From an uncultured Paludibaculum sp. (GTDB lineage: Bacteria > Acidobacteriota > Terriglobia > Bryobacterales > Bryobacteraceae), in contig NZ_OY762269.1 of the NCBI RefSeq assembly GCF_963665245.1, positions 868,001-932,000 on the forward strand: a stretch of DNA of 64,000 nucleotides, read 5' to 3'. Both the position numbers and the translations under genes were made by a program. This document shows, piece by piece, positions 4,828 to 25,048 of this stretch. The stretch's first letter is position 1; the number at the start of each line of letters is the position of its first letter. The notes under the pieces were generated by a model. The model was not told where the DNA came from. It ran no database searches and worked only from the letters and a program-made list of their open reading frames with translations.

Positions 4828-4835
4828 CCTCGCTG
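4828..4835. repeat. Target-site duplication, left copy
   Basis: CCTCGCTG at 4828-4835 is repeated at 6260-6267. The uninterrupted paralogue reads CCTTGCTG followed by GGACGTAG at the same place, which confirms that this is the duplicated target. Confidence 0.85.
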
Positions 4836-6259
4836 AGTTGTGTCTGTCAAGTTCTGCAAAAGCACTGAGCTTCATGGAGCCTTCTGGTTGAGCGGGGGTG
4901 GAGGTGTGGAGGCGGGGGCAGCGAGTCCCCGCCTCCACTCAACCCTGTAGTCACCCCCGGCCGCCTTCAGGCGGCGGGCTGTATATCGCGCAGTAGCTGC
5001 TTCTTGTGCTCTTTCAGCTCCTCCATGTTCAGATAGCGCGTCGCTTCCACCCAGTCCTCGTGGATCTCCACCGCCAGCGCTCGCACCAGCCGCAGGCAGC
5101 TCGCCGCGTTCGGGAAGATCCTCACCACCAGGGTCCGGCGTTTGAGCTCCTCGTTCAGTCGCTCCAGCATGTTCGTCGACTTCAGATGCTTGTGGTGCGC
5201 CTGCGGCAGACGGTAAAACGTCAGCGTCTCCTCGATCTGCTCCTCCACCCACTGGCACAATCTGGCGTAGCGCGATTCCCACTTCTTCAGCCATGCCGCC
5301 AGATCCTGCCGCGCCTCGGCCAGGTTGCGGCGGTCGTAGATCCAGCGCAACTCGGTCAGACAATCGTCGTCGGCCTTGCGCGGCAGATGGTCCAGCGCAT
5401 TGCGCAGGAAGTGCACGTAGCACCGTTGCCAGGCGGCCTCCGGCACGACCTCGGCAATCGCACGCTTCAGGCCCGCGTGATCGTCGCTGACAACCAGTTC
5501 CACTCCGCGCAGCCCCCGCTGCCGCAGCTTCACCAGAAACTCGCGCCAGCTCGACGCGCTCTCCCGGTTGGCCAGTTCCACGGCCAGGATGCAGCGCCGC
5601 CCGTCCCAGTTCACCCCGATCGCCACCTGCACCGCCCGGCTCCGGATCACGCCGTCCTCGCGCACCTTTTCGTAGCGCGCGTCCAGGATCAGAAACGGAT
5701 AGTCCTCCTCCAGCGGCCGCGTCGCGAACTTCTCCAGTTCCTCGTCCATCGTCTGGTTGATCCGGCTGATCGTCGAGGCCGAAAACTCATGCCCACATAG
5801 TTCCTCGGTGATCGCCTTCACCTTGCGCGTCGACACGCCCTGCACGTACATCTCGGCCAGCGCCCCGACCAGCGCCTTTTCGCTGCGCTGATAGCGCTCA
5901 AAGACCTCGGTCCGGAAGCGCCCTTGCCGGTCCTGCGGCACGCGCAGCTCAATGCGGCCGACCCGCGTCACCAGCCCACGGACATAGGAGCCGCTGCGAT
6001 AGCCGGTGCGCATCGGGGTGCGCTCCGACCGCGCCGCACAGAGCGTTTCCTCCATCTCGGCATCCAGTACCTGCTGCACGACGCTCTGCACCAGCGCCTT
6101 CATGAAATCGGAGTCTTCCGCCATCACCGCTTTCCAGTCCACCCGGTTCGCGGTATCCTTCTTTCGGGTCATTGGTCCTTTCCTTCCTTCCGCTGCGATA
6201 CGGATCAGAAAGGCTTACCATGGCCCTCTTTGCTTTTGCAGAACTCTTAGAACATAACC
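4836..6259 (-). mobile_element. Complete IS256-family insertion sequence
   Basis: The element is 1424 bp and carries one transposase gene. Its ends are imperfect inverted repeats of about 28 bp sharing an identical inner block, AGTTCTGCAAAAGCA, and related outer bases (GTTGTGT on the left, GTTATGT on the right strand). It is flanked by the 8-bp duplication CCTCGCTG, within the 8-9 bp typical of the family. Removing the element and one duplication restores the sequence of the paralogous locus near 18925-18945, so the boundaries are well supported. Everything required for mobility appears intact. Confidence 0.92.
4967..6172 (-). CDS. IS256-family (Mutator-like) transposase
   Basis: This 401-residue protein is full length for the family. 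The N-terminal half contains RSGSYVRGLVTRVGRIELRVP, typical of IS256 transposases. The DDE catalytic residues appear as Asp164 in LILDARYEKV, Asp230 in VVSDDHAGL, and Glu337 in STNMLERLNEELKRRT. The CYVHFLRN segment after the second Asp is the family's C/H motif between the second Asp and the Glu. It catalyses cut-and-paste or copy-out transposition of the surrounding element. No frameshift or missing residue is visible. The start is the ATG at 6170-6172, preceded by a purine-rich GGAAGGAAAGGACC stretch. Confidence 0.95.
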   Translation of the reverse strand: MTRKKDTANRVDWKAVMAEDSDFMKALVQSVVQQVLDAEMEETLCAARSERTPMRTGYRSGSYVRGLVTRVGRIELRVPQDRQGRFRTEVFERYQRSEKALVGALAEMYVQGVSTRKVKAITEELCGHEFSASTISRINQTMDEELEKFATRPLEEDYPFLILDARYEKVREDGVIRSRAVQVAIGVNWDGRRCILAVELANRESASSWREFLVKLRQRGLRGVELVVSDDHAGLKRAIAEVVPEAAWQRCYVHFLRNALDHLPRKADDDCLTELRWIYDRRNLAEARQDLAAWLKKWESRYARLCQWVEEQIEETLTFYRLPQAHHKHLKSTNMLERLNEELKRRTLVVRIFPNAASCLRLVRALAVEIHEDWVEATRYLNMEELKEHKKQLLRDIQPAA

Positions 6260-6267
6260 CCTCGCTG
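6260..6267. repeat. Target-site duplication, right copy
   Basis: CCTCGCTG, identical to 4828-4835, lies directly outside the right inverted repeat of the IS256-family element. Confidence 0.85.
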
Positions 6268-7359: not shown

Positions 7360-9783
7360 TTAGCGGTAATACCGCACATAATCGATGTCGATGTGCCCCG
7401 GCAGCCGTCCGGTGTCCACAGGATCCGGCCCCGCCGCGTTGGTCGCCGCCACTCCCAGCAGAATCTGCCACTGCCCGCCGGCGGGCGCCGCGGTCTCTTC
7501 CACCAGTTGCCCGTCCAGGAAGTACTTCACTCCGCGCTCCGAGATGTCACACCCGTACACGTGGTAGTCGGTCACAGGCAGCAGGGATACCGCCTTTCCG
7601 CCTGCCCGGTACAGCTTGATATCGCCGGAGTCGTTTTGCGCCACCCGCACCTCCGGCCCGCCCCCGTTGGGCGCCAGCGCAAAGGTGGTGGTCCACCCGC
7701 GTCCCGCCAGCACCCGGAAGCGCGCCTCATAGTATCCGTAGCCGAACGCCTGCTTCGAGAGCAGCCCGCCGCTCACAAACTCAAACCCACCCGAGGCCGT
7801 CACGCGGCTCACCAGGATATCCGCGCCGCCCGCTCTCGTCGTCACGTTGCGTCGCAGTTGTGTCCCGGCCTCGGTCGTGCTGGCCTGCCGCGTCCACTTC
7901 GCCGCGTCGATCTCCGCGCCGTCGAATTCCTCGCTCCAAGCCAGCGTTCGCCCCGCCGGAACCACCTTTGAGGGGGACGGGGCCAGCGCCGCCTTCCCGA
8001 CTCCGAGGGTCATGGCCGACTTCAACTCTGGCAGGTGGTTCTCATACACACCTCGCGGCGTGGTGTCGTGCTTCCGCGCGATGGCTGCCGCCATCCCCAC
8101 CACTTCGCCCATCATGCCCGTGGTCCGCATCACCCGGACCGTGCCCAGCGCCACATGGGTCACGCTGATATTCCGGCCCGCCATGAACAGGTTCTCTATG
8201 TTTCTTGAATAGAAGCAGCGGTACGGGATCGCGTACGGGCTCTTCTTCCCGAAACTCGCCACGCTGCGGAACTCCGCCCCTGGGAACTGCGTCGTATTCT
8301 TCGCCGTCGGCACGTGCAGGTCGATCGACCATGTCGCCGTCACCGCCGCGTCCGGGAACTCGCGATTCCCCACGATATCCTGCTCCTGCAGGATCACGTC
8401 GCCCAGCAGCCGGCGCGACTCGCGCTTCCCGCCCACATAGGCGACCCACGACAGACGCAAGTTCTGGTATTTCGCCCTCGTCGCCGCGTGGTTCTTCTGA
8501 TAGCTCCAGTTGCCGTAGATGGCGCGGAAGGCGTGGTCGCGGATCGCTTCGAACTCCGCGATCTGGTCCCGGTTCTGGCCCGTTTCCCAATCCCAATCGC
8601 CGCGCGTCGCGTTCTGGATGGTCTCGTCGGTGAACGCGAGCGCCCACGGCGTTTCCGGGAACGGCGCGGGTTTCCCGGCATCCTCCGAGTACCACATCAC
8701 GCTCGTGCCCATGACGAGCTTGTCCGCCACTGACGGCGCCATCGACTCGCCCGTTTCAGCCTGACTCTCCCGCCCGTAGCGCGAATCCGCCCCCGCCATC
8801 TCGCCCAGGTTGCCGTCGCCCGTGCAATCGGCAAACAACGGCGCCTCGTAGCGGTACTCCTTGCCCGTCACCACGTTGCGAGCCGTCACGGCCACAATCC
8901 GGCTGCCCTTCTTCTCCACCCGCGAAGCCCGCGTGTTCAGGAACAATTGGATGTTCTTCTCCGCCTTCACCACGCCCAATTTGCGTTCGTCGTCGTAGTT
9001 GGCCGCCGGCTGGGCATTCCCGGACTTTCCCGGCTCCAGTTCCGCCACCACGACCCCAATCGAGGGGTATGGCGGCAGGTTGATCTGCCCGCCCAACCCA
9101 ACGCGGATGTCCGAGCTCGTGTTTCCGCCGAGGATGGGCCGGTCCTGGATGAGCGCCACCTTCAGCCCCAGCCTGGCCGCCGCGACCGCCGTGGTGGTCC
9201 CGGCCATGCCGCCGCCCACCACCACCAGATCGAAGGCTCCGGCGCGCTCCGGCGGGGCACGCACGCCAACGGTGTCCCTGCGGAACGTGCTCAATGCCAC
9301 ACCGCTGTCGGGAGGCCGCACTGCAGGATCGGCGCTGAACAGGATCGCGTCACAGCGGCCTTCAAAGCCCGTAAGGTCGTGCAAGACCAGAGTCACGCGC
9401 CCTTTGGGGAGGCGTACGGAGCCGCCGTCCTGCCAGTGCCACTGGGCTCCTTCGGTGCCGAAGGTCGCAGCCACAGGCTTCCCGTCGACCAGCAACTGGA
9501 AGCGGCCCGGAGCACCAGGGGCCGGGGCGACCCAATCGCGGGTCCGGACCCATAGGTGGTACGAGGCGGTTTCAGGAACCTCGAAGGTGGTCCTGGCGTC
9601 GGCGACCGGCACCCCCATGCCGTGGGCGAGCAGGTACGCAGAGCCCATCTGATCCATGAATTGCTGATCGACCACCCAGCCGCCGGTGTACTCGAAGCTC
9701 TCGGCCTCCAGCAGAATCGAGGGCCGCCGCGTGGGCGCTGCCATGGCAATCGTGGCCAGTACAGAACACAGAATCCACTTCAT
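7360..9783 (-). CDS. Secreted FAD-dependent oxidoreductase with GH16-like C-terminal domain
   Basis: This 807-residue protein starts with a Sec signal peptide (KWILCSVLATIAMAA). Residues about 20-155 are a beta-rich, carbohydrate-binding-like domain (LLEAESFEYTGGW). Next is an FAD_oxidored domain with the dinucleotide-binding motif VVVGGGMAGTTTAVAAARLG near 187-206, GGNTSSDIR, and an FMAGRNISVTHVALGTVRVM C-terminal FAD contact. Residues about 610-807 resemble a GH16/concanavalin beta-sandwich (LAWSEEFDGAEIDAAKW, GYGYYEARFRV, DIDYVRYYR). The GH16 catalytic E-x-D-x-x-E is not present; the equivalent stretch reads GGPEVRVAQND, so this domain is probably a lectin-like module. The protein likely acts outside the cytoplasm on carbohydrate-derived material; substrate unknown. 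The Met start has no competing upstream start. Confidence 0.85.
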   Translation of the reverse strand: MKWILCSVLATIAMAAPTRRPSILLEAESFEYTGGWVVDQQFMDQMGSAYLLAHGMGVPVADARTTFEVPETASYHLWVRTRDWVAPAPGAPGRFQLLVDGKPVAATFGTEGAQWHWQDGGSVRLPKGRVTLVLHDLTGFEGRCDAILFSADPAVRPPDSGVALSTFRRDTVGVRAPPERAGAFDLVVVGGGMAGTTTAVAAARLGLKVALIQDRPILGGNTSSDIRVGLGGQINLPPYPSIGVVVAELEPGKSGNAQPAANYDDERKLGVVKAEKNIQLFLNTRASRVEKKGSRIVAVTARNVVTGKEYRYEAPLFADCTGDGNLGEMAGADSRYGRESQAETGESMAPSVADKLVMGTSVMWYSEDAGKPAPFPETPWALAFTDETIQNATRGDWDWETGQNRDQIAEFEAIRDHAFRAIYGNWSYQKNHAATRAKYQNLRLSWVAYVGGKRESRRLLGDVILQEQDIVGNREFPDAAVTATWSIDLHVPTAKNTTQFPGAEFRSVASFGKKSPYAIPYRCFYSRNIENLFMAGRNISVTHVALGTVRVMRTTGMMGEVVGMAAAIARKHDTTPRGVYENHLPELKSAMTLGVGKAALAPSPSKVVPAGRTLAWSEEFDGAEIDAAKWTRQASTTEAGTQLRRNVTTRAGGADILVSRVTASGGFEFVSGGLLSKQAFGYGYYEARFRVLAGRGWTTTFALAPNGGGPEVRVAQNDSGDIKLYRAGGKAVSLLPVTDYHVYGCDISERGVKYFLDGQLVEETAAPAGGQWQILLGVAATNAAGPDPVDTGRLPGHIDIDYVRYYR

Positions 9784-10007
9784 CGTTCTAGATTGACGCC
9801 AGACGGACGGCGGCGCATCTGACGATTGGACTATCTGGTCGCGCCCAGCGGGCCTCGCGGCCGATTGGCCATCCCCCGGTCACCGCAGCGGAGGACGTTG
9901 TTCGGCTCAATACACTGAGATACAGAGTCAGCGGAGCAAGGCTTGCTTTGGAAAGTCTCAAGTGTTTGATTTGTTGGGCGGGAGACCGGGATTGAACCGG
10001 CGGGCTG
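9784..10007. other. Intergenic region with a possible tRNA 3'-end fragment
   Basis: The minus strand at about 9977-10004 reads GCCGG-TTCAATC-CCGGT followed by CTCCCGC. This fits a tRNA T-arm (5-bp stem with one G-U, 7-base loop) and the 3' acceptor strand. No matching D-arm, anticodon arm or 5' acceptor is found on the other side, where repeat copy A begins. It may be a tRNA remnant or chance. The rest of the interval holds no gene I can support. Confidence 0.35.
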
Positions 10008-10300
10008 GGGGACGTCCTGGTGTGTCGCTCGCCATTTTGCCGCAAAAGCATCCATTCTCGGCAGTACGGAGTGACGGGCACCGATTGCCCCGGTCACTTT
10101 CCACCGGCCGCAGGATCTCCGCATGAAAGTCGCTGGCAGGATGTCACCCTCCGTTGGACTTTTAGTGGCAGAGTATTGAAGAAAACAGTCGATGAGGTCA
10201 GAAATCGTAAGGGAGTCGGAGTTCGACGGGATACAGGAATCGGCCATCCTGAATCCCTCGATCAGAATGCGAGGAGGACATAGCAGGACGTCCCGATTTT
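10008..10300 (+). repeat. Dispersed ~300-bp repeat, copy A
   Basis: First of five same-orientation copies. It starts GGGACGTCCTGG and ends CAGGACGTCCCGATT. The two ends are imperfect inverted repeats of about 33 bp sharing CA-AATG-CGAG and CAGGACGTCCC. Internal conserved blocks include CTCGGCAGT, GGTCACTTTCCACCGG and GGCCATCCTGAA. No protein is conserved across copies. Confidence 0.8.
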
Positions 10301-10343
10301 CAAGTCAGACTGCTGCAATGCACCAAGGAGAGTGGCGGGGGGC

Positions 10344-10880
10344 TCACTGCATGAGCCGAACAGGAGAGGGGGCAACGCAGCGCTGCATTGTTCCATTCTG
10401 TAATGCACTGCATATCTGCTGCAAATAGTACGTCGTGGCTGCGACCGTCATTAGGAATTGCCCTCTGGGCTTGACCAATGAGGCGGACTTTACAGCGACC
10501 GAGCTGTCTGGGCTGACTAATGACAGCGCACTACACCAGTCGCGAGCGGGTGAATCAGAGAACTGGACTGCGACGTCAGAATGCGCAAATTGGTTGCGAA
10601 GCTTGCGCAATAGGCCGAGATCTGCATGGACATTCGGAGGCAGGAGCCCGAGCGCGAACGCCAGGCTGATCTTGGCGGAGAGTGTCGCGAGGGGCCGGTC
10701 GCCCTCGAACATGTCCGCCACCTTGGGCCTCTCCACCATGAATTGTAGGAGTAGGTCAGTAATTCGATTTTCCACGAAACTGACAGCTAGGATGGCAGCA
10801 GCGCGATCGCTCTCAGTCGCGTATACGTCAACCATGTCGTTATATGCTGCGAGGTAGTCTGTGTTTGGCAAGTTGGCCAC
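10344..10880 (-). CDS. MltR-like (mannitol repressor family) protein
   Basis: This 178-residue protein matches the MltR-type domain: SDRAAAILAVSFVENRITDLL, then MFEGDRPLATLSAKISLAFALGLL and LGLLRKLRNQFAHS near residue 100, the last being the family's signature R-x-RN-x-FAHS. The domain is helical and cytoplasmic. In enterobacteria MltR modulates mannitol operon expression, but most relatives are of unknown function and no mannitol genes lie here. The start is GTG at 10878-10880; an internal ATG (MVDVYATESDR) is possible. The gene sits between repeat copies A and B as a single-gene cassette. The last 40 or so residues after QFLMTVAATTYYLQ are less conserved-looking. Confidence 0.75.
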   Translation of the reverse strand: MANLPNTDYLAAYNDMVDVYATESDRAAAILAVSFVENRITDLLLQFMVERPKVADMFEGDRPLATLSAKISLAFALGLLPPNVHADLGLLRKLRNQFAHSDVAVQFSDSPARDWCSALSLVSPDSSVAVKSASLVKPRGQFLMTVAATTYYLQQICSALQNGTMQRCVAPSPVRLMQ

Positions 10881-10990
10881 ACGAATATCTTAGCTCCTCT
10901 GTCAGATCGCCACATTCTGATGCGGTAACGAATCCACGCCTTATTCATCGTGGTTGCCTAATAAAGGCGAGGGGCCTAGGGCCGGGGCCC
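10881..10990. other. Short intergenic stretch before repeat copy B
   Basis: No gene. It contains a GC-rich near-palindrome, GGGGCCTAGGGCCGGGGCCC, at about 10971-10990, immediately before the truncated repeat copy B. Confidence 0.4.
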
Positions 10991-11238
10991 GGGGGCAGTT
11001 CGGACTGGTTGACAGCGATTGCTTTGGTCACTTTCCACCGCCGGCCATAAGATCTCTCCACCACGGCCGCCTACCGGATGGCTCTCTCCGATGGACTTCG
11101 AGGTACCGAGCAACGAAGCATCATGATCGAAGAGGTCCAAGACCGTAGGTGCGTGGAAGCCGTCGGCATACAGGAGTCGGCCATCCTGAACTCTTCGAGA
11201 AGAATGCGAGTAGGGCCCTTCAGACGTTCCGACTTCCC
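10991..11238 (+). repeat. Dispersed ~300-bp repeat, copy B (5'-truncated)
   Basis: This copy starts at the GGCAGTTCGGACTGG block, so the first 50 or so bases, including the left terminal repeat, are missing. It retains GGTCACTTTCCACCG, GGCCATCCTGAACTCTTCG and ends AATGCGAGTAGGGCC...TTCCGACTTCCC. It has the same orientation as the other copies. Confidence 0.78.
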
Positions 11239-11378
11239 GGGGCGGCTTCCGGTTCGTGCTTCGCGGGACGGGGAAGAGCGCCTTCAGGAGGGCGTCAAAT
11301 GTCGAGGCGCAAGAGCCTCGCGTGCATCCGGTGCTCGGCCATTTGGCGCTCGCGTTCCCTTTCTTCCGCGGCTTTCCG
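11239..11378. other. Intergenic, no gene recognised
   Basis: GC-rich sequence containing a small hairpin, GAGGC-GCAAGA-GCCTC, near 11300-11316. The long plus-strand frame crossing it begins inside repeat copy B and has no protein-like features. Confidence 0.4.
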
Positions 11379-11459
11379 TTATTCGCTCGACATCACCAAC
11401 GGAAGGGCGATCGCGATGAACAACGAGAAAAAAATGGCCATAAGTAGGGCTGGGGTCAT
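11379..11459 (-). CDS. Possible 26-residue membrane peptide
   Basis: A tiny minus-strand frame encodes MTPALLMAIFFSLFIAIALP followed by LVMSSE and a TAA stop. It is one continuous hydrophobic segment of the length of a single membrane helix, with a short polar tail. A Shine-Dalgarno-like GGGAG lies about seven bases upstream of the ATG. Known peptides of this kind include KdpF-like subunits and type I toxins, but I see no kdp genes and no obvious antisense RNA promoter. The evidence is the combination of hydrophobic composition and a well-spaced ribosome binding site, so it is tentative. Confidence 0.4.
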   Translation of the reverse strand: MTPALLMAIFFSLFIAIALPLVMSSE

Positions 11460-11891
11460 GGCGGTCTCCCATGGACAGTATATGCCTCGCAGAGTGAGCA
11501 ATGCTGGGCGGAGGCCCGTTGGGAAGGGCGCTTTCGAGGTGACGGGGCCGGATGGTGCCGGACTCCGGCCTGGGGTGCTGGCGACGGATGCTCCCTATCG
11601 GGGCAGTAAGGGGCCGACTGACGTCGCAACACTAATCCATCATCGGGTGAGCGGTCAGGATGATTCGCCCGGATCGGTTTGGGTGGCCCGACGGCTACGG
11701 TTTGAGATTGCGCCTGCAGGGCTAACCGGATTGCTCCCGTGTAGTCGATGATTCGCTCGGAACGGCACATCCGCGAGTAGGGCGTCAGCCAAGTGGCGAC
11801 GACTTTCCGATAGCGCCACGCTTCGGCCGTTGAGGAAGCAGGCACTTGGAGCCCTAACGCCCAGACCGCACGTCGCCAAGAAGGCGATAGA
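11460..11891. other. Intergenic, no gene recognised
   Basis: About 430 bases lie between the tiny membrane peptide and the hypothetical gene at 11892. It should contain the promoters of both, which point away from each other, but no clear -35/-10 pair stands out. Frames here lack protein features. Confidence 0.4.
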
Positions 11892-12350
11892 TTGGTGGTC
11901 ATGGTGGATTCCAAGGCACGGCGAATCGCGGCTGGCGTGTTGGAGAAATTCCGGGACGGCGTGATCACCAACTTTGACCTCGAAGGACTGTGGCCGGGAT
12001 ATAGCGAGGGCGACCGTGGCCTGCACGCCATTGAGACGATGGTCTGGCGATACTACGACGACTTTCACGAGCACAGGTTGGCCGACGATCACCACGGCCT
12101 CACCGATTCAGGGCGGGCAGTTTTCGACAGGTGCGTGCTCTTCCTGTGCACCGAATGTGAATATGCCTGGCCGGATGATAACTTTGCTACGGCGAGACCC
12201 TTCTCCGGAGAACTGATCGAGCTCGGCTTATCAGACGCTCACGATCGCTTAGAGGAAGCCCGCCTCGAAGGACTGCACGTACTCGGAGAGTCCCCGTTCT
12301 GGCCTTTCGCTAACCGCTCAGAATACGAATGCACCCGGTCGGCCCACTAG
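11892..12350 (+). CDS. Hypothetical acidic protein
   Basis: This 152-residue soluble protein is rich in Asp, Glu and His with aromatic clusters (VWRYYDDFHEHRLADDHHG, LFLCTECEYAWPDDNF). I do not recognise the family. It could be a small immunity or adaptor-like protein given the acidic, compact character, but that is only impression. The first codon is TTG at 11892 with AAGGCG six bases upstream; an ATG at 11901 is the alternative start. It ends 20 bases before repeat copy C, so it forms a cassette between copies B and C. Codon use resembles real coding sequence, with strong third-position GC. Confidence 0.65.
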   Translation: MVVMVDSKARRIAAGVLEKFRDGVITNFDLEGLWPGYSEGDRGLHAIETMVWRYYDDFHEHRLADDHHGLTDSGRAVFDRCVLFLCTECEYAWPDDNFATARPFSGELIELGLSDAHDRLEEARLEGLHVLGESPFWPFANRSEYECTRSAH

Positions 12351-12370
12351 CGACCGAGGGCCACAGGCCG

Positions 12371-12666
12371 GGGGGCGTCCTGATGTGTCACTCGTCATTT
12401 TGCGGCGAGATCATCCGTCCTCGGCAGTTCGGATTGGCTGGCAGCGATTGCTTTGGTCACTTTCCACCGGCGACCACAGGATCCACGCACCAAGTCCGCC
12501 TACTCGATGCCTCTCTCCTTTGGACTTTGAGGTGCCAAGCAACGAAGCACCACGGTCGAAGAGGTCCAAAACCGCAGGCGCGTGGAAGGCGTGGGTATAC
12601 AGGAATGGGCCATCCTGAATTCTTCGGTCAAAATGCGAGTAGGACGCTTCAGGCCGTCCCGACTTT
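12371..12666 (+). repeat. Dispersed ~300-bp repeat, copy C
   Basis: A full-length copy from GGGGGCGTCCTGATGTGTCA to CAGGCCGTCCCGACTTTC. The reverse complement of its first 37 bases aligns with its last 37 bases (shared CAAAATG, CGAGT and TCAGG blocks), showing long imperfect terminal inverted repeats. The interior is shared with copies A, B and E. Confidence 0.82.
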
Positions 12667-12803
12667 CGACTTTCCCGACTTTCGCCGACTTTCGGGCTCG
12701 TTGCGCGGGCAGTCCTACCGGGCAGGCTGACTTGGTATCTCGACGAAACCAACTGAGGGGTGCTCTCAGGGAGGCCTAACTTATAAACTGATGGGAAGTC
12801 AGG
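12667..12803. other. Short intergenic stretch upstream of the PIG-L gene
   Basis: The sequence just after copy C contains a short ACTTTCGACTTTCCCGACTTT run that reiterates the repeat's terminal bases. An AT-rich AACTTATAAACTG segment around 12778-12790 could be part of the promoter of the downstream deacetylase gene. Confidence 0.35.
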
Positions 12804-13547
12804 ATGCACGGAGGAGAAGTGGTTACCAGGCGAGGCTTTTTGACAACTGGCGGCTTGTTGATGCCGCTTGCGCCGGGCGCAGTAGCGCGTCCCTTGAAGG
12901 TGGTTTGCGTGGGCGGCCATCCGGACGATCCCGAGTCGGGTTGCGGCGGGACTCTCGCCCGCTATGCCGCGGAGGGACATAGGGTGAGCATCGTCTATCT
13001 GACTCGCGGCGAGCGTGGAGTCCAGGGCAAATCGCTCGAAGAGGCCGCGGCCATTCGCACCGCGGAAGCAGAAGCCGCGTGCCGCATCCTGGGGGCCAAA
13101 CCTATCTTTGCGGGTCAGATCGATGGCGACACCGAAGTGAACTCGGCCCGCATCGAAGCCTTCAAGAAACTGCTGGCCGCCGAGGCTCCGGACGTCATGC
13201 TGGCTCACTGGCCCATCGACTTCCATGCGGACCATCAGGCGGCCTCCCTGCTCGCGATGCGGTCGTACTTCGCTCTGCGAGACAGGCCCGTCTTGTATTT
13301 CTTCGAAGTAAACAGCGGGTTCCAATCGATGGGCTTCAAGCCCACTCACTACGTAGACATCCTGGCGGTGCGCGAGAAGAAGAAGTCTGCCCTGTTTGCG
13401 CACCGCAGCCAGAATGGCGAACACATTTATCGCGTTCACCACGAGGTCATGGAGAATTATCGCGGTCGGGAGTCCGGCCTGACCGCCGCGGAAGGGTTTG
13501 TGCTGCTCCCCCGTGACGGAAAAATCGACCGTTTGCCCGGAGTTTGA
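12804..13547 (+). CDS. Tat-exported PIG-L/LmbE-family deacetylase
   Basis: This 247-residue protein opens with a Tat-type leader (TRRGFLTTGGLLMPLAPGAVA). It then has the PIG-L zinc-binding motif GGHPDDPESGCGG (His39, Asp42) and the second motif HADHQAA (His141, His144). The family removes N-acetyl groups from GlcNAc-containing molecules; here an exported sugar deacetylase is likely. An ATG at 12804 with GGAAG upstream is preferred, though a GTG at 12819 follows a strong GGAGGA and could be used. It lies between repeat copies C and D with no co-directional neighbour. Length and motifs are complete. Confidence 0.9.
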   Translation: MHGGEVVTRRGFLTTGGLLMPLAPGAVARPLKVVCVGGHPDDPESGCGGTLARYAAEGHRVSIVYLTRGERGVQGKSLEEAAAIRTAEAEAACRILGAKPIFAGQIDGDTEVNSARIEAFKKLLAAEAPDVMLAHWPIDFHADHQAASLLAMRSYFALRDRPVLYFFEVNSGFQSMGFKPTHYVDILAVREKKKSALFAHRSQNGEHIYRVHHEVMENYRGRESGLTAAEGFVLLPRDGKIDRLPGV

Positions 13548-13690
13548 GAGAAAGGCGCAGCCCAGCAGCAGGCATCACTGGATCACTGGACGGAATGGCT
13601 GTTGGGCTGCAACTCGACGAAGCTCGCAGGCGGGCAGATCGGTTGAGGCCGGACAGGACGTCGACAGGGGAACTGGCCGTCCTCCCCGCA
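13548..13690. other. Intergenic, no gene recognised
   Basis: Short GC-rich interval after the PIG-L gene, convergent with the permease remnant. No terminator-like hairpin with a T tract is visible. Confidence 0.35.
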
Positions 13691-13834
13691 TCAATCGCGA
13701 TGGAGCAGTCTGGCCCGATCGTTGCCGGCGGTGCGCACGGCGGGCCCGGTGGCGGCCGGGATCGAAGAGGCCAGGAGCGTCAGGCCGGCCAGCGTGAGGG
13801 TTGTGATGTCGCTGGTGGTTACGCCGAACAGGAA
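13691..13834 (-). pseudogene. C-terminal fragment of an ADOP/MacB-like permease
   Basis: The minus strand encodes FLFGVTTSDITTLTLAGLTL, LASSIPA and a degenerate end with ARLLHRD and a stop. This matches the last membrane segment and tail of ADOP permeases (LLFGVxPxD...LLAxxxPARRA..xDP..LRHx). Only about 47 codons remain. The upstream side is replaced within about 26 bases by repeat copy D. The conserved PARRAxxxDP stretch is corrupted. Confidence 0.55.
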
Positions 13835-13859
13835 CGGGCCGGGGACGTCCGGAAGGGGT

Positions 13860-13950
13860 CGGAGGACGTCCTGATGTGTCGCTCTCCATTTTGTGGCGAA
13901 ATCATCCATTCTCGGCAGTTCGGATTGGTTGGTAGCTATCGCTTTCCATT
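13860..13950 (+). repeat. Dispersed ~300-bp repeat, copy D (3'-truncated)
   Basis: It begins GGAGGACGTCCTGATGTGTC and runs through the CATTTTGTGGCGAAATCATCC and CTCGGCAGTTCGGATTGG blocks, then similarity is lost near 13950. It has the same orientation as the other copies and lacks the right terminal repeat. Confidence 0.75.
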
Positions 13951-14158
13951 CCAGAGCCTGCACGTTCCGGTCGAGAGGACTATGCTTCCACCCGCGCTCG
14001 TCTTGGGCCAAGTCATGGCCCGGTCCACATTAGAGCCTCTGTCGTAGAATCGCGCACGTCTCTGGCAAAAAACTTCTAGCGATGTGCTTCCAGGTCAGTA
14101 TCCACAGGCCTTTGGAGGCACTTCGGCGGATGCCCCAACTTTTTGAGTTGGAGCACTG
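13951..14158. other. Intergenic, no gene recognised
   Basis: No coding frame or RNA structure that I can support lies between truncated copy D and the tandem duplication. Confidence 0.35.
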
Positions 14159-14849
14159 TTTGGTTCCGGCTACGCCGGGTTAGGGATTCGTTGGGAACTG
14201 GGACACTCGTCGGAGGCTTCCGGGTCGAACTCGTTAGCAGCAGTTTTGATTGGTGGAGTGAGTTCTTTCGGGATGGGGTGTTTGTCAGGGTTGCGATGGG
14301 CCCCCGGCGATGCCGGGGGGGGAATGGTGGGGCGGGTGTGGTTGTTGGTTGGGGACTGGTTAGCACCACTACATTTGGATTGTGCACATCTCTGGCAGCG
14401 CATCTTTCACGGTGCGGTCCGGAGCCAATGTTGACAGGCACCTGAAGGTACCTTTCGCCAGGCTCCAACATTGACTCGGCCGGCCTGTTTGGTTCCGGCT
14501 ACGCCGGGTTACGGATTCGGTGGGAACTGGGACACTCGTCGGAGGCTTCCGGGTCGAACTCGTTAGCAGCCGCTTTGATTGGTGGAGTGAGTTCTTTCGG
14601 GATGGGGTGTTTGCCAGGGTTGCGATGGGCCCCCGGCGATGCCGGGGGGAATGGTGGGGCGGGTGTGGTTGTTGGTTGGGGACTGGTTAGCACCACTACA
14701 TTTGGATTGTGCACATCTCTGGCAGCGCATCTTTCACGGTGTGGTCCGGAGCCAATGTTGACAGGCACCTGAAGGTACCTTTCGCCAGGCTCCAACATTG
14801 ACTCGGCCGGCCTGCTTGGTTCCGGCTACGCCCGGTTACGGATTCGGCG
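14159..14849 (+). repeat. 329-bp tandem duplication (two full units plus a partial third)
   Basis: Unit 1 runs 14159-14487 and unit 2 14488-14814, with a third partial unit to about 14849. The units differ by a handful of substitutions and by the length of a G run (GCCGGGGGGG against GCCGGGGGG) in a small hairpin, CCCCCGGCGATGCCGGGGG. Each unit also contains GGAGCC-AATGTTG ... GGCTCC-AACATTG motifs around a central AGGTACCT. Minus-strand frames through both units are proline-rich and differ between copies, so I do not call a protein. Confidence 0.9.
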
Positions 14850-14905
14850 CCTTTCGGAGGAGAGGAGGCGCTGCGATCTGAGTTGCGCCTTGACGATTTG
14901 TGGCC

Positions 14906-15219
14906 GGGGGCGTTTGGTGTGCCACTCCGCATTTTGCGGCGAGATCATCCGTCCTCGGCAGTTCGGATTGGCTGCCAGCTATCGCATTGGTCACCTTCCG
15001 CCGCCGGCCGCAGGATCTCCCCACTAATGCCGCCTACCGGATGCCTCCTTTCGTTGGACCTCGAGGTGCCGAACAACGAGGCATGACGGTCGAGGAGTTC
15101 AAAAACCGTAGGTGCGCGGAGCTGTCGGCATGCAGGAATCGGCCGTCCTGAATTCTTCGAGGAAGATGCGAGTAGGACGCTTCAGGACATCCCGACTTCC
15201 TCAGGACGTCCCGACTTCC
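14906..15219 (+). repeat. Dispersed ~300-bp repeat, copy E
   Basis: A full copy starting GGGGGCGTTTGGTGTGCCAC and ending with two tandem versions of the right terminus, CAGGACATCCCGACTTCC and CAGGACGTCCCGACTTCC. The right end overlaps the 3' end of the minus-strand PAP2 phosphatase gene and supplies its stop codon. Confidence 0.82.
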
Positions 15220-16471
15220 ATCCACCGGCCCGGCTCCTGTCGACCGCCTGGACCAGGCGGTTGTGCAGAAAAAGCGAGACTCCCAGCGTGATGCCGGTCA
15301 ACGCCCAGACAGCGGTCCGCGAACCCAGCAGAAGCGAACCGCTCCACCGCAGCAGCCCCAGCCACGTGCCCGTCAGGAGACATCCGCCAATGACCGCGGC
15401 GCGCCGCTCCGCCACACTCCAGGGCAGGGCGTGAACCCAACCCGCAAGGAACGTCAGCGTGAACGGAACGGCCACAATCAGATCGATCAGGTAGTGCTCC
15501 CCCAACGCCAGGGTGGCGAAGAAGGTCCCGAGCAGAAACACGCCGGCCAAGGCGCGATAGATCCGGCGCGAATGGCGCAGAACCCAATAGCACCCCAACG
15601 CGGAGGCAAAGTGCAGGGAGGGCATGCAGTTGCGAGCCACACCCGGCAAACTCAACGGACTCAGGCTGCCCGCCGGTTGCAATCGAGCGGGCCAGTCCGC
15701 CGCAAACGCAAACTTGGGACCGGCCGCGGGACAGAACCAGTAGAGGCTAAAGCCGATCAGGCCCATGGTCACAAACATCGGAAAGGAACGGTATGCGGAA
15801 TTGGGATTGCGAAAATCGACGGCCAGCGCGAGTCCGGCCATCGCAGGCAGGGCGTAATAGATGGTTGCCGTCAGATTCCAGGCCGCCGGTCGCCCGGCAA
15901 GAATCCTCCCCAGCAGAAAGCTCAGGTGGAATCCAAACTGCCCGTCCACCGCGTGAAACAGTGGATCGATAGTGAGCGGGCACATTCGTTGGGTAAGGGG
16001 GAGAAGGAAGCCCAGCGCGACCCAGAACCACCCACTGATCCAGGCGATCGCAAAGAGCCGGCTGGCCGGCCAGCGCTCCCTCTCGGACACAAGAAAGACC
16101 CGCGCCCCTAGCACCAGAAGGCAGCCTACGCCAAGGTAGCTCGCCGAGTTGATGAGCTCGGAACCGAAGTACCCCGCTTTGGGCACGCCCGCCCAATCCA
16201 GCACCGCATACAGCAGACCTCCGAGGACCACCGCCGCAGCTGCGGCCCAGCGCCCCGGGCGAGCCGCCGCAAACAGAAAGGCGCACCCCAGATAGGTAAA
16301 CGCTACGGTGGGATTCCCTCTCAGCTCCCGGAGCAATCCACCAGGAATACCGAATATGATGGCCGCCGGCGACAGTACCAGCATCCACCGAACCCAGATG
16401 GATCGAAGTGGGTCCCTGCCCGGCTCACGGGAAACCGATCCCCATGGTAAAGTCTTCGCAGTCGAGTGCAT
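15182..16471 (-). CDS. PAP2-superfamily membrane phosphatase
   Basis: This 429-residue integral membrane protein has about ten hydrophobic segments. The C-terminal half carries the PAP2 acid-phosphatase signature: NCMPSLHFASA (PSLH at 284-287) and GEHYLIDLIVAVPF (324-337), the second and third catalytic motifs. Its layout resembles the PAP2_3/inositol-phosphotransferase-like branch, which acts on lipid phosphates or phosphoinositol head groups at the membrane. The last 13 or so codons (KSGRPEEVGMS) and the stop derive from the right terminus of repeat copy E, so the native C-terminus has been replaced. The ATG start at 16469-16471 is reasonable. Confidence 0.85.
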   Translation of the reverse strand: MHSTAKTLPWGSVSREPGRDPLRSIWVRWMLVLSPAAIIFGIPGGLLRELRGNPTVAFTYLGCAFLFAAARPGRWAAAAAVVLGGLLYAVLDWAGVPKAGYFGSELINSASYLGVGCLLVLGARVFLVSERERWPASRLFAIAWISGWFWVALGFLLPLTQRMCPLTIDPLFHAVDGQFGFHLSFLLGRILAGRPAAWNLTATIYYALPAMAGLALAVDFRNPNSAYRSFPMFVTMGLIGFSLYWFCPAAGPKFAFAADWPARLQPAGSLSPLSLPGVARNCMPSLHFASALGCYWVLRHSRRIYRALAGVFLLGTFFATLALGEHYLIDLIVAVPFTLTFLAGWVHALPWSVAERRAAVIGGCLLTGTWLGLLRWSGSLLLGSRTAVWALTGITLGVSLFLHNRLVQAVDRSRAGGWKSGRPEEVGMS

Positions 16472-16984
16472 TCAGGCTGTGATTCGCTCTCGCCCCGCAA
16501 TGACATGCAGGGAAATAGGGGCGGGAAATGGAGACGTACTGGCCTGTCACTTCGACTGGTGCCCTGTCGTTGTCCGTACTCCGGACTCTCGCATTCTACT
16601 CTAAACTATCAGGCAATGGAGATGCAGATCGATCGTTTATGTAAATTCTTCTCCGTAATTCATCCGCAACGGACGTGACGGCATGGAAACAGCATCTCCG
16701 CTTATAAGTATCTGGAAAAGAAATACTTGTGTACGGCGGAAAGCCATTCTGGCGCACCAGGGCACAACGGGGCTGTCTCCGTGAAGCGCCTCTATCTGGC
16801 TCGTAAATAGAACATGATAAACAGGATAGAATTTCACTCGACTCTCTCGGTATTCACAATGCTGCGCGGATTGTCTGGATTCCGGCCCTCAATCGTGCCA
16901 ATGGGCCGGACCTACCGCACGCAGGCGTTCACCAGCAATGTGCCGGGACAGTTAGCCGAGCCATCCTCGTTCGTGAGACACGGA
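16472..16984. other. Intergenic, no gene recognised
   Basis: About 510 bases hold only short implausible frames. An imperfect inverted repeat, AAGTAT...ATACTT, lies at about 16704-16727. The AT content is higher than in the flanks, and the region probably holds the promoter of the PAP2 gene on its left side. Confidence 0.4.
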
Positions 16985-17440
16985 GCCCCAGCCTCCGGCT
17001 TGGGGGAGCGCTGGGTGGTGACGGGACGGGGCAGCCCCAGCCTTCGGCTTGGGGGAGCGCTTGGTGGTGACGGGGCGGGGCAGCCCCAGCCTTCGGCTTG
17101 GGGGAGCGCTGGGTGGTGACGGGGCGGGGCAGCCCCAGCCTTCGGCTTGGGGGAGCGCTGGGTGGTGACGGGACGGGCAGCCCCAGCCTACGGCTTGGGG
17201 GAGCGCTTGGTGGTGACGGGGCGGGGCAGTCCCAGCCTTCGACTTGGGGGAGCGCTGGGTGGTGACGAGGCGGGGCAGTCCCAGCCTCCGGCTTGGGGGA
17301 GCGCTGGGTGGTGACGGGACGGGGCAGCCCCAGCCTACGGCTTGGGGGAGCGCTGGGTGGTGACGAGGCGGGGCAGTCCCAGCCTTCGGCTTGGAGGAGC
17401 GCTGGGTGGTGACGGGGCGGGGCAGTCACAGCCTTCGGCT
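16985..17440. repeat. 49-bp minisatellite, nine units
   Basis: Nine head-to-tail units of 48-49 bp contain GGCTTGGGGGAGCG, CTGGGTGGTGACGGG and CGGGGCAGCCCCAGCC. Each unit can form a hairpin around GCC-TTC-GGC. In different units the loop reads TTC, TAC or TCC while the GCC/GGC stem is mostly kept. Because 49 is not a multiple of three, the long minus-strand proline-rich frame drifts through all three frames and is not considered a gene. The array abuts the truncated TolB-propeller pseudogene. Confidence 0.92.
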
Positions 17441-17449
17441 TGGAGATTT

Positions 17450-18430: not shown

Positions 18431-18500
18431 ACGGGACAGCCCGTCCCATCGCGGTTTTCCTTGAGATTTCGGCAGTCCAAACCGCACAGTCCAAACCGCA
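18431..18500. repeat. REP-like hairpin and 14-bp direct repeat before the RAYT remnant
   Basis: ACGGGACAGCCCGTCCC (about 18431-18447) can fold as ACGGG-ACAG-CCCGT. It is followed by two adjacent copies of CAGTCCAAACCGCA at 18473-18486 and 18487-18500. Short palindromes of this type accompany RAYT transposases, a remnant of which starts 14 bases later; the link is inference. Confidence 0.4.
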
Positions 18501-18513
18501 CTTCCGCTTCAGA

Positions 18514-18742
18514 ATGCCTCGCATTGCGCATTTCGTTGCGCCCGGCGTGGGCACCATATCATGTAGTGCGGAACCGCGCGCCCGTTTGTCTTCCGGACGG
18601 CTGCGGATCGTCTGGTCTATTTCGACCTTCTGAGAGAACAGGCCGCTTTCACCAAGGTGCGGATTCTGGCTTACTGCCTGATGCCCAATCACATGCACTT
18701 GATCGCCGTGCTGCCGGAAGCCGATTCGCTGGCAGGGCACAG
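18514..18742 (+). pseudogene. REP-associated tyrosine transposase (RAYT, Y1_Tnp) remnant
   Basis: The start MPRIAHFVAPG matches RAYT N-termini. A frame change gives PYHVVRNRAPV (compare HHVxxRGNRR.PVF). A further change gives RLVYFDLLREQAAFTKVRIL and AYCLMPNHMHLIAVLPEADS, which is the family's catalytic HUH-type motif YCLMPNHxHLI. The gene then stops abruptly at 18742, in sequence CAGGACGTCCCGATT that is identical to the right terminus of repeat copy A. The catalytic tyrosine region and the rest of the protein are absent. It is certainly non-functional. Confidence 0.8.
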
Positions 18743-18748
18743 CAGGAC

Positions 18749-18887
18749 GTCCCGATTCTCCACCGGGGCCAAAGTCCGAGATGGGGCTTCGGTGGTTTCC
18801 GTGGACGGCGTTTCCCCGTGAGTAACCGGCTCAAAGGTGACAATCTCGCCGAACCAGACTTCGAGAGGATTCTGAGAAGTTAGCGAT
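18749..18887. other. ADOP downstream flank duplicated at 4644-4782
   Basis: This non-coding sequence downstream of the ADOP pseudogene is near-identical to 4644-4782. It starts with CGTCCCGATTCTCCACCGGG at both places, so the duplication unit begins within the repeat terminus. Confidence 0.8.
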
Positions 18888-21399
18888 TCACTCATCTCGT
18901 AGCGCTGTCATCGGATCAACTCCTGCCGCGCGCCTTGCTGGGACGTAGCTCGCCGCGAGCGTGACCACGGTCAACACAGCCATGCCCGCCAACAGGGTTG
19001 CCGGGTCATTGGGCTGAAGGCCGAACAAAAGAGTTCCTGCCGCCCGGCCGGCCCACAGTGCCAGGAATCCACCCGCAGTCAGACCGACCGCCAGCAGCAG
19101 ACCTGCCTCGAAGAGCACAAGGCGAATCACTTGGCTGCGGTCCGCGCCCAGCGCCATGCGTACGCCGATCTCATTTCGCAGCCGCGCCACCATATACGAG
19201 ATCACCCCATAGAGGCCCAAAGTCGCCAGGAGTCCCGCCAGCACTCCGAAGGCGCCGGACAGCGTTGCCATCAGTCGCTCAGGCAGCACGGAATCGCGCA
19301 CTTGGCCTGCCAACTCACGAAGCTCGATGCCGATTCCAGGGCTTACCTCGGCCACCGCGACTTTGACGGCGGACGTCAACTCGCCCATCGACCCCTTTGA
19401 GCGCAGAACAAAGGTGGCCGAGCCTGCGCCCAACTCATCTTCCTGTGCAATGGGAATGAAGCTGACGGGTGGGAAATCCTCTCTCAGGCTGTAGTACTTC
19501 GTGTTTCTGACAAGGCCTATGACCTGGAACACCGGGAGGGGCTGGCCTGGCGACGTTCGAAGTCGAAACGTTCGCCCCACCGGATTGCTCCCGGCAAAGA
19601 ACTGCCGGGCGAAAGCTTCATTGACGATGGCCACTTTCGGCGATGCGAGAGTGTCGTGATCGTCGAATTCGCAGCCGGCGAGTAGCGCCGTATCCATGGT
19701 ATGGAAGTATCCGGGACCGACTAGGCTGAAATGCGAGACCTTGCCGGACTCGCCAGTTGCACCCTCCGGAATGACCATGTCATCCAGCCCGGAACCGCTG
19801 ATGGGTGTGTCCATCACTTGAGCCGCGGAGGAAACCGGAGGCTGCGCGAGTAGGTGCTGTAGCAAGTCACGGTATAGCGCCGGACGGCGTTCCTTGCTAT
19901 AGCCCACCTGGCGAAGATCCAGGTTGATAGCCAACACACCTTCCGATCGAAAGCCGACATCCACAAGCAGGAGATTGCGAAGACTGCGCACGAACAGCAG
20001 CGCACCAACTAGCAGCACCAGCGAGAAGGCGATTTGAGTCGCAACCAGGCCGCGTCGCAACCCGAAGCGCTCGCGCCCGGCTGTGGCTCCGCGAGCTCCT
20101 GACCGCATCGCCGCGGCCGGCGCCAGGTACGTGGCACGCAGCGCCGGCGCTACGCCGAACAGAATGCACGTCATGACCGTGAGCGCAGCGGTGAAACCTA
20201 GTACTTGTTGATCCAATCCAAGGCCCACGAAAAGTGGACTATTGGTTGTGCTGATAAACGCAAGCAGCGCGCGGCTCAGCACCTGCGCCAGGGCCCCCCA
20301 AGCGCGGCTCCGATCACCGCAAGCACTAGACTCTCCGCCAGGAGTTGACGAAGTAATTGCCCGCGCGATGCTCCGATCGCCAGCCGTACTGCCATTTCGC
20401 GCTCACGCGTGTTGGCACGGGCCAGCAGGAGATTGGCGAGATTGCCGCAGGCGATTAGCAGTACCAAACCAGTCGTTGCCAGCAGAAGCCACCGGGGGGC
20501 TCCCGTATGCCTTTCGCCGAAAGGAAACGCCCGTGCCCGCTTCGGTTGCGATGAGCTTGTTGGAGAGATAGCGTTTGGCCGCGTCGGACTGATAGTTCGG
20601 CGGGAGCGTCGTCCGCATGATGCCGGGCGAGATGGCCTGGAGTTGGGCGGTAGCGCGTTTTGCCGTCCACTCCGGCTTGAGGCGCCCCATGATAGATAGT
20701 CACCAGCTGCTACGCACTGGGATGAGGCCCCGACCGTCTCGGGCCAGCAGGCGGTCAGCACATAAAGGAATCGCTATGTCGTACCGAGTCCCGACTTCAG
20801 CACCAAAAATACGGTGACGGCGTCACACCCACCACCGGAAATGCGTGCCCATCGAGGCTCACCACCCGGCCAATGGCGCCGGCGTCGCCGGCCAACTCGC
20901 GCTGCCAGAAAGCGTAGCTGACCACGGCGCCAGTGCTGACGCAACCATTACGATCATCGTCCGCGCTGAACGTCCGGCCCATCAGTGGATTTACTCCGAG
21001 AACACGGAAAAACTCACCGCTCACGTAAAGGCCCTCGGCGAAGTGCCCTTCGCCGCCGGTCGCCAGATTAAACCGCGCCGCGCTCCAGGCCAGCACGCCT
21101 GTAAAGGCTTGCTGCCGTGCCTGGATCTCCTCCCATTGGGCATAAGTGAGTTCGGCACTGCGTGAGTAGTACAGGCCGGATTGCTCGGAACCGCGGGCAA
21201 AGGCGATAGAGAGGAGTTCCTTTGGTCACTCCACAGGCAACGCCCTGAGGCGCAGGGCGTCAATCAGATGGAAGATTGCGGTGTTCGCGCCGATGCCTAG
21301 CGCGAGCGACAGCCCGGCTATCAGCGCAAAGCCGGGCTGTTGCCGCAACTGCCGCACGCCGTAACGTACGTCCTGTAGGAATGATTCCGGCCAGTTCAC
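18888..21399 (-). pseudogene. ADOP-type MacB-like permease, inactivated
   Basis: Minus-strand reading from a GTG at 21397-21399 recovers a whole permease. It begins [20 protein letters not shown] and [20 protein letters not shown], passes through [20 protein letters not shown] and the second FtsX block, and ends with YVPARRAAGVDPMTALRDE. Lesions: an in-frame TGA after LPVE near 21230; a frameshift in a T5 run near 20811; an in-frame TGA in SSW-LSIMGR near 20704; a frameshift in a C6 run near 20499; and a frameshift in a C6 run near 20295, after which 464 codons are intact. Two nonsense codons plus three frameshifts make this a genuine pseudogene. ADOP permeases are orphan two-module FtsX-type proteins of unknown cargo, usually paired with PadR, absent here. 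An extra C-terminal copy is at 4644-6419. Confidence 0.9.
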
Positions 21400-23966: not shown

Positions 23967-25048
23967 ACGCCATTCAGTGGCAGGACCGGAACGGTCAGCC
24001 GGCTCGGAGCCCGGCTCAGGATGCCGGAGTATTTGGAGAGGGGTTGCACACTCGCAACCTGCTCGTCGAATGGTAGAAGCGATAGTCCGTCTTGCCCGAT
24101 GACGTACGCCCGACTATCGATCTCGTGCTTGCTGCCCCGTGATTTCACGACGGTGAGGCGGCGGCGCAGGGAGCTGTTGATTCCCACGAGACTCAACAGA
24201 ATGATGTTGTCGACGATGGAGCTCACGGGAAGATCCGGCATGAAGGAGGAGAGACCCAGAAACTCGGGATTCTCGTAGCTGAAGAAGGTCGTCATGAGCC
24301 GGTGCTTGCTGTAAGCCACCAGCGCATGAAAGAAGTCGCGGTAGACAGCCTGGTCGGCGAGTGCCGTGCTGTAGCTCGTCATTCCGTCGATAACCATGCG
24401 CTGGATATGGTGCTCTTCGATGGTGCGGACGATCTTCGCGGGGTGCTCGTCCAGCGAAATTAGCAGTCCTTTCAGGTTGCGCTTGATCGCCCCCTTCCGC
24501 AGAAGCTGCGTGCCGAGGACGGTCTTGCCCACGCCGGAAAGGCCGACCACCATGGTGGTGGACCCATCAAGCATGCCGCCGCCCAGCAACGTGTCCAGGG
24601 CTTCCACTCCGATGGCGGAGCGGCGAGCCTTGGATGTGTGCTGATCGAACTTCATGCGCGGAGGCGCCTGAACACGGCGGAACACTTGCAGGCCCTTACC
24701 ATCCACTATTTCCAGAGTGTGTTCGCCATGGTCATAGTCCTGGCCGCGGCTCTTGACAAGCTCAACGGTGCGCAGAACTCGCCGGGTCAGCAAAGTTCGC
24801 CGTAGCCGAATCGCCGTATCGACCAAGGAGCCTGTCGCTTCCAGCGTCAGCAGCGTATCCGGGTAGCTTCCGATCTCGTGGGAGAGCATCGTCGTCAACT
24901 GCACCCGGTTGAGCCCTTCGATGAGTTGTTGTAGAGCTTCCCGGTAAGAGCCTGGCCCGGCGGCCACGAGCGCACCGCCCGTCCTGATCGGACCGGTCCC
25001 GACTGTAGCCGCTGTGGAGGGCGGGGCTACTGCGCTACCACTGTGCAT
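23963..25048 (-). CDS. KaiC-like ATPase with a truncated first domain
   Basis: I start this at the ATG 25046-25048, giving 361 residues; the frame is open further upstream but would run antiparallel-free through the DksA gene, which is clearly coding in another frame. Residues about 34-130 are the C-terminal half of a KaiC domain (TVELVKSRGQDYDHGEHTLE, then QVFRRVQAP) with no Walker A. Residues about 140-361 are a complete second domain: GVEALDTLLGGGM, Walker A GLSGVGKT (169-176), ISLDEHPAKIVR, RMVIDGMTSY and VVKSRGSKHEIDSRAYVI. KaiC/RAD55-like ATPases act as oligomeric timers or signalling ATPases. It overlaps dksA by 14 bases and the kinase gene by ATGA. The missing CI Walker A is unusual and could be real degeneration or a distinct architecture. 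Confidence 0.8.
   Translation of the reverse strand: MHSGSAVAPPSTAATVGTGPIRTGGALVAAGPGSYREALQQLIEGLNRVQLTTMLSHEIGSYPDTLLTLEATGSLVDTAIRLRRTLLTRRVLRTVELVKSRGQDYDHGEHTLEIVDGKGLQVFRRVQAPPRMKFDQHTSKARRSAIGVEALDTLLGGGMLDGSTTMVVGLSGVGKTVLGTQLLRKGAIKRNLKGLLISLDEHPAKIVRTIEEHHIQRMVIDGMTSYSTALADQAVYRDFFHALVAYSKHRLMTTFFSYENPEFLGLSSFMPDLPVSSIVDNIILLSLVGINSSLRRRLTVVKSRGSKHEIDSRAYVIGQDGLSLLPFDEQVASVQPLSKYSGILSRAPSRLTVPVLPLNGV

Follow-up and report, generated by a model that had tools for sequence, protein, structure and literature searches.

Transposase elements called TIRtrons, in which a RAYT-like Y1 transposase lies between terminal inverted repeats, are the closest described systems to the one reported here. 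Their enzymes, the TIRYTs, are presented as relatives of the RAYTs, acidobacterial members are named, and the motif GGGGWSAS occurs in the ends of many, not all, members (PMC3733652, PMC6006769); TIRYTs correspond to subclass 2.1 of TnpA-REP (PMC6006769). REPINs measure around 71 to 110 bp, are built of tagged hairpin repetitive extragenic palindromes (REPs), and form clusters by insertion beside older copies (PMC3116915), and bacterial miniature inverted-repeat transposable elements (MITEs) are given as 70 to 300 bp long with terminal inverted repeats of 15 to 30 bp (PMC3733652). Here we describe a family of repeats found in 64,000 nucleotides of an uncultured Paludibaculum sp. (the window, positions 868001 to 932000 of contig C3, NZ_OY762269.1, in a genome of 9.54 Mb and three contigs). 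These repeats are very probably non-autonomous miniature transposons, resembling MITEs and REPINs, that depend for movement on a TIRYT-type Y1/HUH transposase, the elements of which (∼860 to 880 bp) share their ends. Named relatives of the transposase point to the Bryobacteraceae. To our knowledge, movement has not yet been shown in the TIRYT group.

The window contains five repeats (copies A to E; Table 1), all on the plus strand and within a few bases of the positions given by an earlier reading made from the letters alone (the sequence-only reading). The length of about 300 bp proposed there is correct for copies A, C, and E, which are complete, and incorrect for B and D, which are partial. 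The imperfect terminal inverted repeats that it had noted, about 35 bp long, align in 11 full copies (10 from this genome and one from G002, a sister species), and a core of ∼230 bp is conserved, with a mean column identity of 81% over the 11 copies. A typical left edge is GGCCGGGGGACGTCCTGGTGTGTCACTCCCCATTTTG and a typical right edge, reversed, is GGAAGTCGGGACGTCCTGGTGTGTCCTACTCGCATTTTG. When the whole genome was searched with copy C, 12 copies were recovered: the five in the window (E values of 1.9e-76 for E, 2.6e-65 for B, 1.5e-47 for A, and 5.7e-21 for D), four on the minus strand at C1:1.100-1.115 Mb (locus L035), and three single copies; the next match had an E value of 0.21. Among 61 genomes, its own and 60 relatives (E ≤ 0.01), copy C matched three, all of one genus: its own, G002 (one full and two partial copies), and G006 (one partial copy). 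The sequence-only reading had considered a mobile or cassette role unlikely should the repeats be absent elsewhere, and they are present at these further sites. A second miniature subfamily, with the same ends and another core, was searched for in three genomes and has four copies at C3:3.287-3.303 Mb (locus L039), all on the plus strand, and three in G006, two of them on the minus strand 1.3 kb apart and one on the plus strand 56 kb away. Copy C matched no phage or plasmid record, and the exact 24-base end pattern was found in 0 viral contigs.

The ends of the miniature elements, about GGGACGTCCTGGTGTGTCACTC, are common to the Y1/HUH transposase elements at three other loci (L036, L040, and the L041 region). 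When up to one mismatch to the end motif GGACGTCCTGNNNTGTC was allowed, a search of the whole genome gave 35 sites, which are clustered, compared with five for the reversed motif used as a control. By hand count, 31 of the 35 sit at the ends of miniature or Y1 elements, one (C1:526478) overlaps a weak match to Y1, and three have no assignment. The Y1 elements with the motif number three plus a left-end fragment at L036, two plus one internally deleted at L040, and two in the L041 region; the transposase gene lies between terminal inverted repeats in the three L036 elements, the two full and one internally deleted L040 elements, and the element at 942418-943291, whereas for L041a, the open-frame gene of the L041 region, no left end was recognized. 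The inverted-repeat score exceeded that of the top shuffle for L036T2 (43 versus 28) and, barely, for L040T2 (28 versus 26), and was not above it for L069 of G006 (24 versus 26). Pfam Y1_Tnp, found in L036T3, L041a, and L068 of G002, exceeds its cutoff (35.2 and 38.6 versus 23 bits). Beyond the shared end, miniature and Y1 left ends aligned with a score of 18.2 (shuffles, 12.3; highest, 12.9), compared with 12.6 for miniature left against Y1 right ends (shuffles, 12.5).

We also compared ends across 30 loci fetched around transposase homologues, among the matches listed. All five loci with at least 66% identity, from this genome, G002, and G006, carry the end motif; below 66%, one of 25 does, with one mismatch (L093, 59%), and 24 do not. 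In the stretches fetched for L068, L091, and L092, one end each is clear. Ends of the same layout with different letters, such as GGGGACAGCCTGACCCGTCCC, accompany other Y1 genes of the genus: L071, a TIRYT of the same genus, has ends of the GGGGACAGCC type, and the lineage of the miniature elements and L041a has GGGACGTCCTG. At 26 other Y1 loci, the inverted repeat scored above all shuffles in 17, and the exact GGGGWSAS motif was present in 6. Judged from these sequences, the end unit is a mark of the transposase elements and of both miniature subfamilies, and it varies with the transposase lineage.

Measured against the published descriptions of TIRtrons, the likeness lies in a RAYT-like Y1 transposase that has terminal inverted repeats at its borders in place of GTAG REPs, and in end repeats that recur at other genomic sites, alone, paired, or grouped. 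The differences are ends of GGGGACGTCC instead of GGGGWSAS, end pairs that enclose a conserved core in two subfamilies, and clusters that are co-oriented; a core-bearing miniature partner is not described in the parts of the TIRYT literature at hand. With MITEs the repeats share their size, terminal inverted repeats, lack of a long shared frame, and ends common to an autonomous element, whereas the Y1/HUH partner sets them apart, and no target duplication was seen. Like REPINs (PMC3116915), they are non-autonomous inverted pairs that can fold as a whole and have a Y1 transposase as partner; unlike REPINs, they are ∼300 bp long and their lone end units do not fold. By our own reading, 7 of the 11 copies have GTAG on the inner side of the right end, and GTAG-tagged hairpin REPs were not found. 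Because the TIRYT features are present save for the exact GGGGWSAS, and neither tagged self-folding REPs nor integron cores are, the repeats are, as far as sequence goes, miniature TIRtron derivatives with a conserved core and co-oriented clusters. A derivation of the core from the Y1 gene was considered and rejected, as there was no DNA match past the ends among the stretches compared.

Copies point the same way in every miniature cluster (window, 5/5; L035, 4/4; L039, 4/4) and every Y1 cluster (L036, 3/3; L040, 3/3; near L041, 2/2), an unusual arrangement. For independent, unoriented insertions the chance of this would be about 2^-15, a figure to be read with the caution that the clusters were picked after being seen and that old duplications are possible in places; leaving out L035, because its copies share flanks, gives 2^-12. 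Local duplication, in which one insertion was multiplied along with its surroundings, would produce co-orientation with no need for a strand rule. At L035, copies b and d indeed share a 336-bp flank at 98.8%, window copies B, C, and E are more alike (71 to 74%) than other pairs, and an old event with decayed flanks is possible for the window. Terminal modules are also tandemly doubled at several ends (window 13842 and 15212; L035 8987, 9325/9342, and 9666; L036 8101; L040 3380), which may reflect repeated cutting and joining, or slippage. However, when 400-bp flanks were compared in L035, the window, L036, L040, and L039 (L041 lay outside this test), the last four showed no common origin, with the exception of stretches common to two neighbors and a 327-bp repeat between D and E, even though elements are up to 90 to 95% alike. 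Given that unrelated flanks at co-oriented copies are seen in most clusters, we consider local duplication improbable.

Co-oriented copies with unrelated flanks lead us to infer insertion that is strand-specific and falls close to older copies, which is how an HUH enzyme working on single-stranded DNA would be expected to behave; such copies, being independent, offer a direct prediction for single-strand transposition. Under transposition by a TIRYT, the enzyme would recognize the ∼20-bp end unit and would cut and rejoin it in single-stranded DNA, so that new copies land near older ones in one orientation. Movement at present is probably little or none, and L041a (C3:939007-939801) could still act in trans. 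A replication-strand rule was tried and set aside, since the miniature loci agree with it and the Y1 elements fail, leaving a hint only. GC skew was sampled in 60 stretches, 59 about 20 kb long and one 15 kb long; of the 14 on C1 below 3.2 Mb, 11 had a negative skew, and of the 15 on C3, 12 had a positive one. Five miniature loci follow the inferred leading strand (plus for the window, L038, and L039 on C3; minus for L035 and L037 on C1; two-sided p about 0.06), and the skew is ambiguous at the position of L036. Among Y1 elements, those of the L041 region and the remnant in the window conform, and L040, C3:1288749, and C1:2878052 do not.

A broader proposal would make TIRYT loci strand-polarized, long-lived insertion hot spots in which the joining of neighboring ends sometimes moves or deletes the DNA between, so that genes turn over between species like a slow, integrase-free cassette array. 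We hold this to be improbable. On that proposal, single-stranded transposition, perhaps still driven in trans by the gene at C3:939007-939801, would set every copy of a locus one way.

Window positions 21852-24440 match G006:C1:2.190-2.193 Mb, where a second-subfamily element and two Y1 matches lie within 12 kb, and L037 matches G006 over its first 448 bp, at a place with a Y1 match and a left-end fragment about 9 kb off. Such matches near elements suggest that the loci may be long-lived hot spots.

Blocks of homology with sister species begin at element edges in three places: a PIG-L block shared with G002 starts at 12693 (copy C ends at 12667, and short GACTTTC-like repeats trail it as far as this block), a PAP2 block shared with G006 starts at 15229 (copy E ends at 15219), and a G006 block at L035 9669 starts at the end module of copy c. 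Together with the dispersal of the copies and the ends common to transposase elements, these edges bear out the proposal in the sequence-only reading of a miniature mobile element. Its further suggestion that the copies capture genes in an integron-like layout is not supported, because PIG-L and PAP2 lack paired repeats in the sister species and both integron cores occur together in 0 of 11 copies. In G002 the PIG-L protein is 96% identical and a right-end repeat fragment lies downstream; the 3.8 kb read upstream hold no repeat match, just a one-mismatch end motif 3.2 kb away. Around PAP2 in G006 there is no repeat match in 18 kb, and Y1 element ends lie 6 to 8 kb off; the PAP2 stop codon in the window falls within the terminal module of E, and the G006 homologue has a different tail.

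These results also bear on a cassette system, in which the repeats would be attC-like recombination sites that shuffle genes with the help of an integrase encoded elsewhere. As in integrons, co-oriented repeats alternate with unrelated genes, although not strictly with the one gene per gap first described, because gap B-C holds two. Neighborhoods also vary between species, so the same genes do not always accompany the same copies; ordinary rearrangement explains this too. Integron attC sites have the cores GTTRRRY and RYYYAAC. Among the 11 copies the former was found in 6 and the latter in none, so that paired cores are absent (integrase genes were not searched for), and no cassette movement is seen. 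Moreover, the inverted repeats sit at the outer ends and are common to Y1 elements, and no intervening gene of the window cluster recurs next to another copy in nine stretches compared by BLAST. We hold a cassette system to be very improbable.

We regard it as exceedingly improbable that the repeats are copies of a structured RNA gene. The conserved core would fit such a gene, as would the fold of copy A, which beats shuffles (z = −2.9; 1 of 200 shuffles as good) but largely follows from the inverted ends. The RNAalifold covariation term is unfavorable (+1.23), double changes occur in 4 of 60 pairs, no Rfam family matched at the gathering cutoff in L035 to L038, and two weak Rfam matches in window 9000-17000 fall outside the repeats.

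Several observations weigh against miniature transposons moved by a TIRYT. NCBIfam REP_Tyr_transpos remains under its cutoff (58.3 and 62.7 versus 80 bits), the exact GGGGWSAS is absent from the ends, which read GGGGACGT, one letter off, and the folds of four isolated end units do not surpass those of shuffles (z of −0.04 to 0.99). The miniature right end scores 15.2 against Y1 left ends (shuffles, 12.2) and 13.0 against Y1 right ends (shuffles, 12.6); it is closer to the left, and the end pairing is therefore not settled. Eight copies of the gene were read in the genome, and seven are broken or incomplete: HUH and tyrosine motifs fall in separate frames in L036T1 and L036T2, L036T3 has both catalytic motifs and lacks its start region, and the gene is disrupted in L040T1 to L040T3 and the second L041 copy. 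Only L041a, 264 amino acids from a TTG, has an uninterrupted frame with both motifs, and it has a right end and no recognized left end. Related copies look damaged as well, in G002 with the first His of the HUH motif altered and in G006 with no HUH motif found. No clean empty site was found, no target duplication was evident by eye in 25-nt flanks, and some block edges lie off the elements (13680, 177 bp from D; L035 13105-15058 and 17328-18955). Upstream, L041a resembles the Y1 remnant of the window rather than its sibling elements, and the array is 56 kb away; L041a may be a gene left stranded that can act in trans.

TABLE 1 Repeats, genes, and transposase remnant in the window, with single repeat copies elsewhere in the genome
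Feature	Position	Strand	Match or remark
Copy A, full-length miniature element	10003-10301	+	
MtlR-like gene	10344-10880	-	PF05068, 5.1e-9
Copy B	10994-11237	+	left end lost, 3' ~245 bp kept
26-codon membrane-like open reading frame	near 11380-11460	-	by eye
152-aa protein	11892-12350	+	no Pfam or NCBIfam match at 0.001
Copy C, full length	12366-12667	+	
PIG-L gene	12804-13547	+	1.6e-25
Candidate permease fragment	13691-14011	-	by eye only
Extra end motif ahead of copy D	13842		part of 13842-13945
Copy D, 5' left-end fragment	13857-13945	+	89 bp
Copy E, full length	14902-15219	+	ends in tandem second terminal module
Tandem terminal module in E	15182-15219		19-bp unit
PAP2 phosphatase gene, after E	15182-16471	-	1.7e-20
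Truncated Y1 transposase element remnant	18441-18753	+	protein match 18546-18737, one TAG
End-like motif of Y1 remnant	18753	-	
Single copy	C1:1898165	-	
Single copy	C1:4086173	-	
Single copy	C3:2267681	+	

Other repeated DNA lies in and around these loci. The 327-bp unit between D and E (14156-14847) is present in 2.1 copies with 97% matches, and part of it (14178-14363) recurs several times at C1:4.698-4.701 Mb with 82 to 86% identity. Further along the window, 16984-17443 holds 9.4 copies of a 49-bp unit, with like sequence at C1:2734025-2734931, and another short dispersed repeat at about 21595-21800 matches partially at many places here and in G006. A ∼1.43-kb segment at 4835-6260, with at least 13 near-identical copies elsewhere in the genome, is probably a recent insertion sequence; the sequences on either side of it match window 18748-18940 and 18933-19092, respectively or in part. 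Padloc gave 0 matches for four neighboring proteins. At L035, a 447-bp segment (8193-8640) that is 96 to 97% identical at two G006 places and 92 to 93% identical at two G002 places, with weaker copies besides, is a different mobile segment, apparently recent, and it stops 26 bp short of a miniature element. A 1.4-kb segment shared by L037 (5099-6501) and L038 (3179-1778) at 96% identity abuts the L038 miniature element at its left edge. Two distant loci (L037 793-1626 and L042 9774-10670) carry related tandem arrays whose unit measures roughly 105 bp. Finally, other end-like motifs, such as GGGACGGCCTGACTCGTCCC, at L042 11099, L115 15667, and L119 5504 and 5556 hint that the genus has more families of TIRtron ends.

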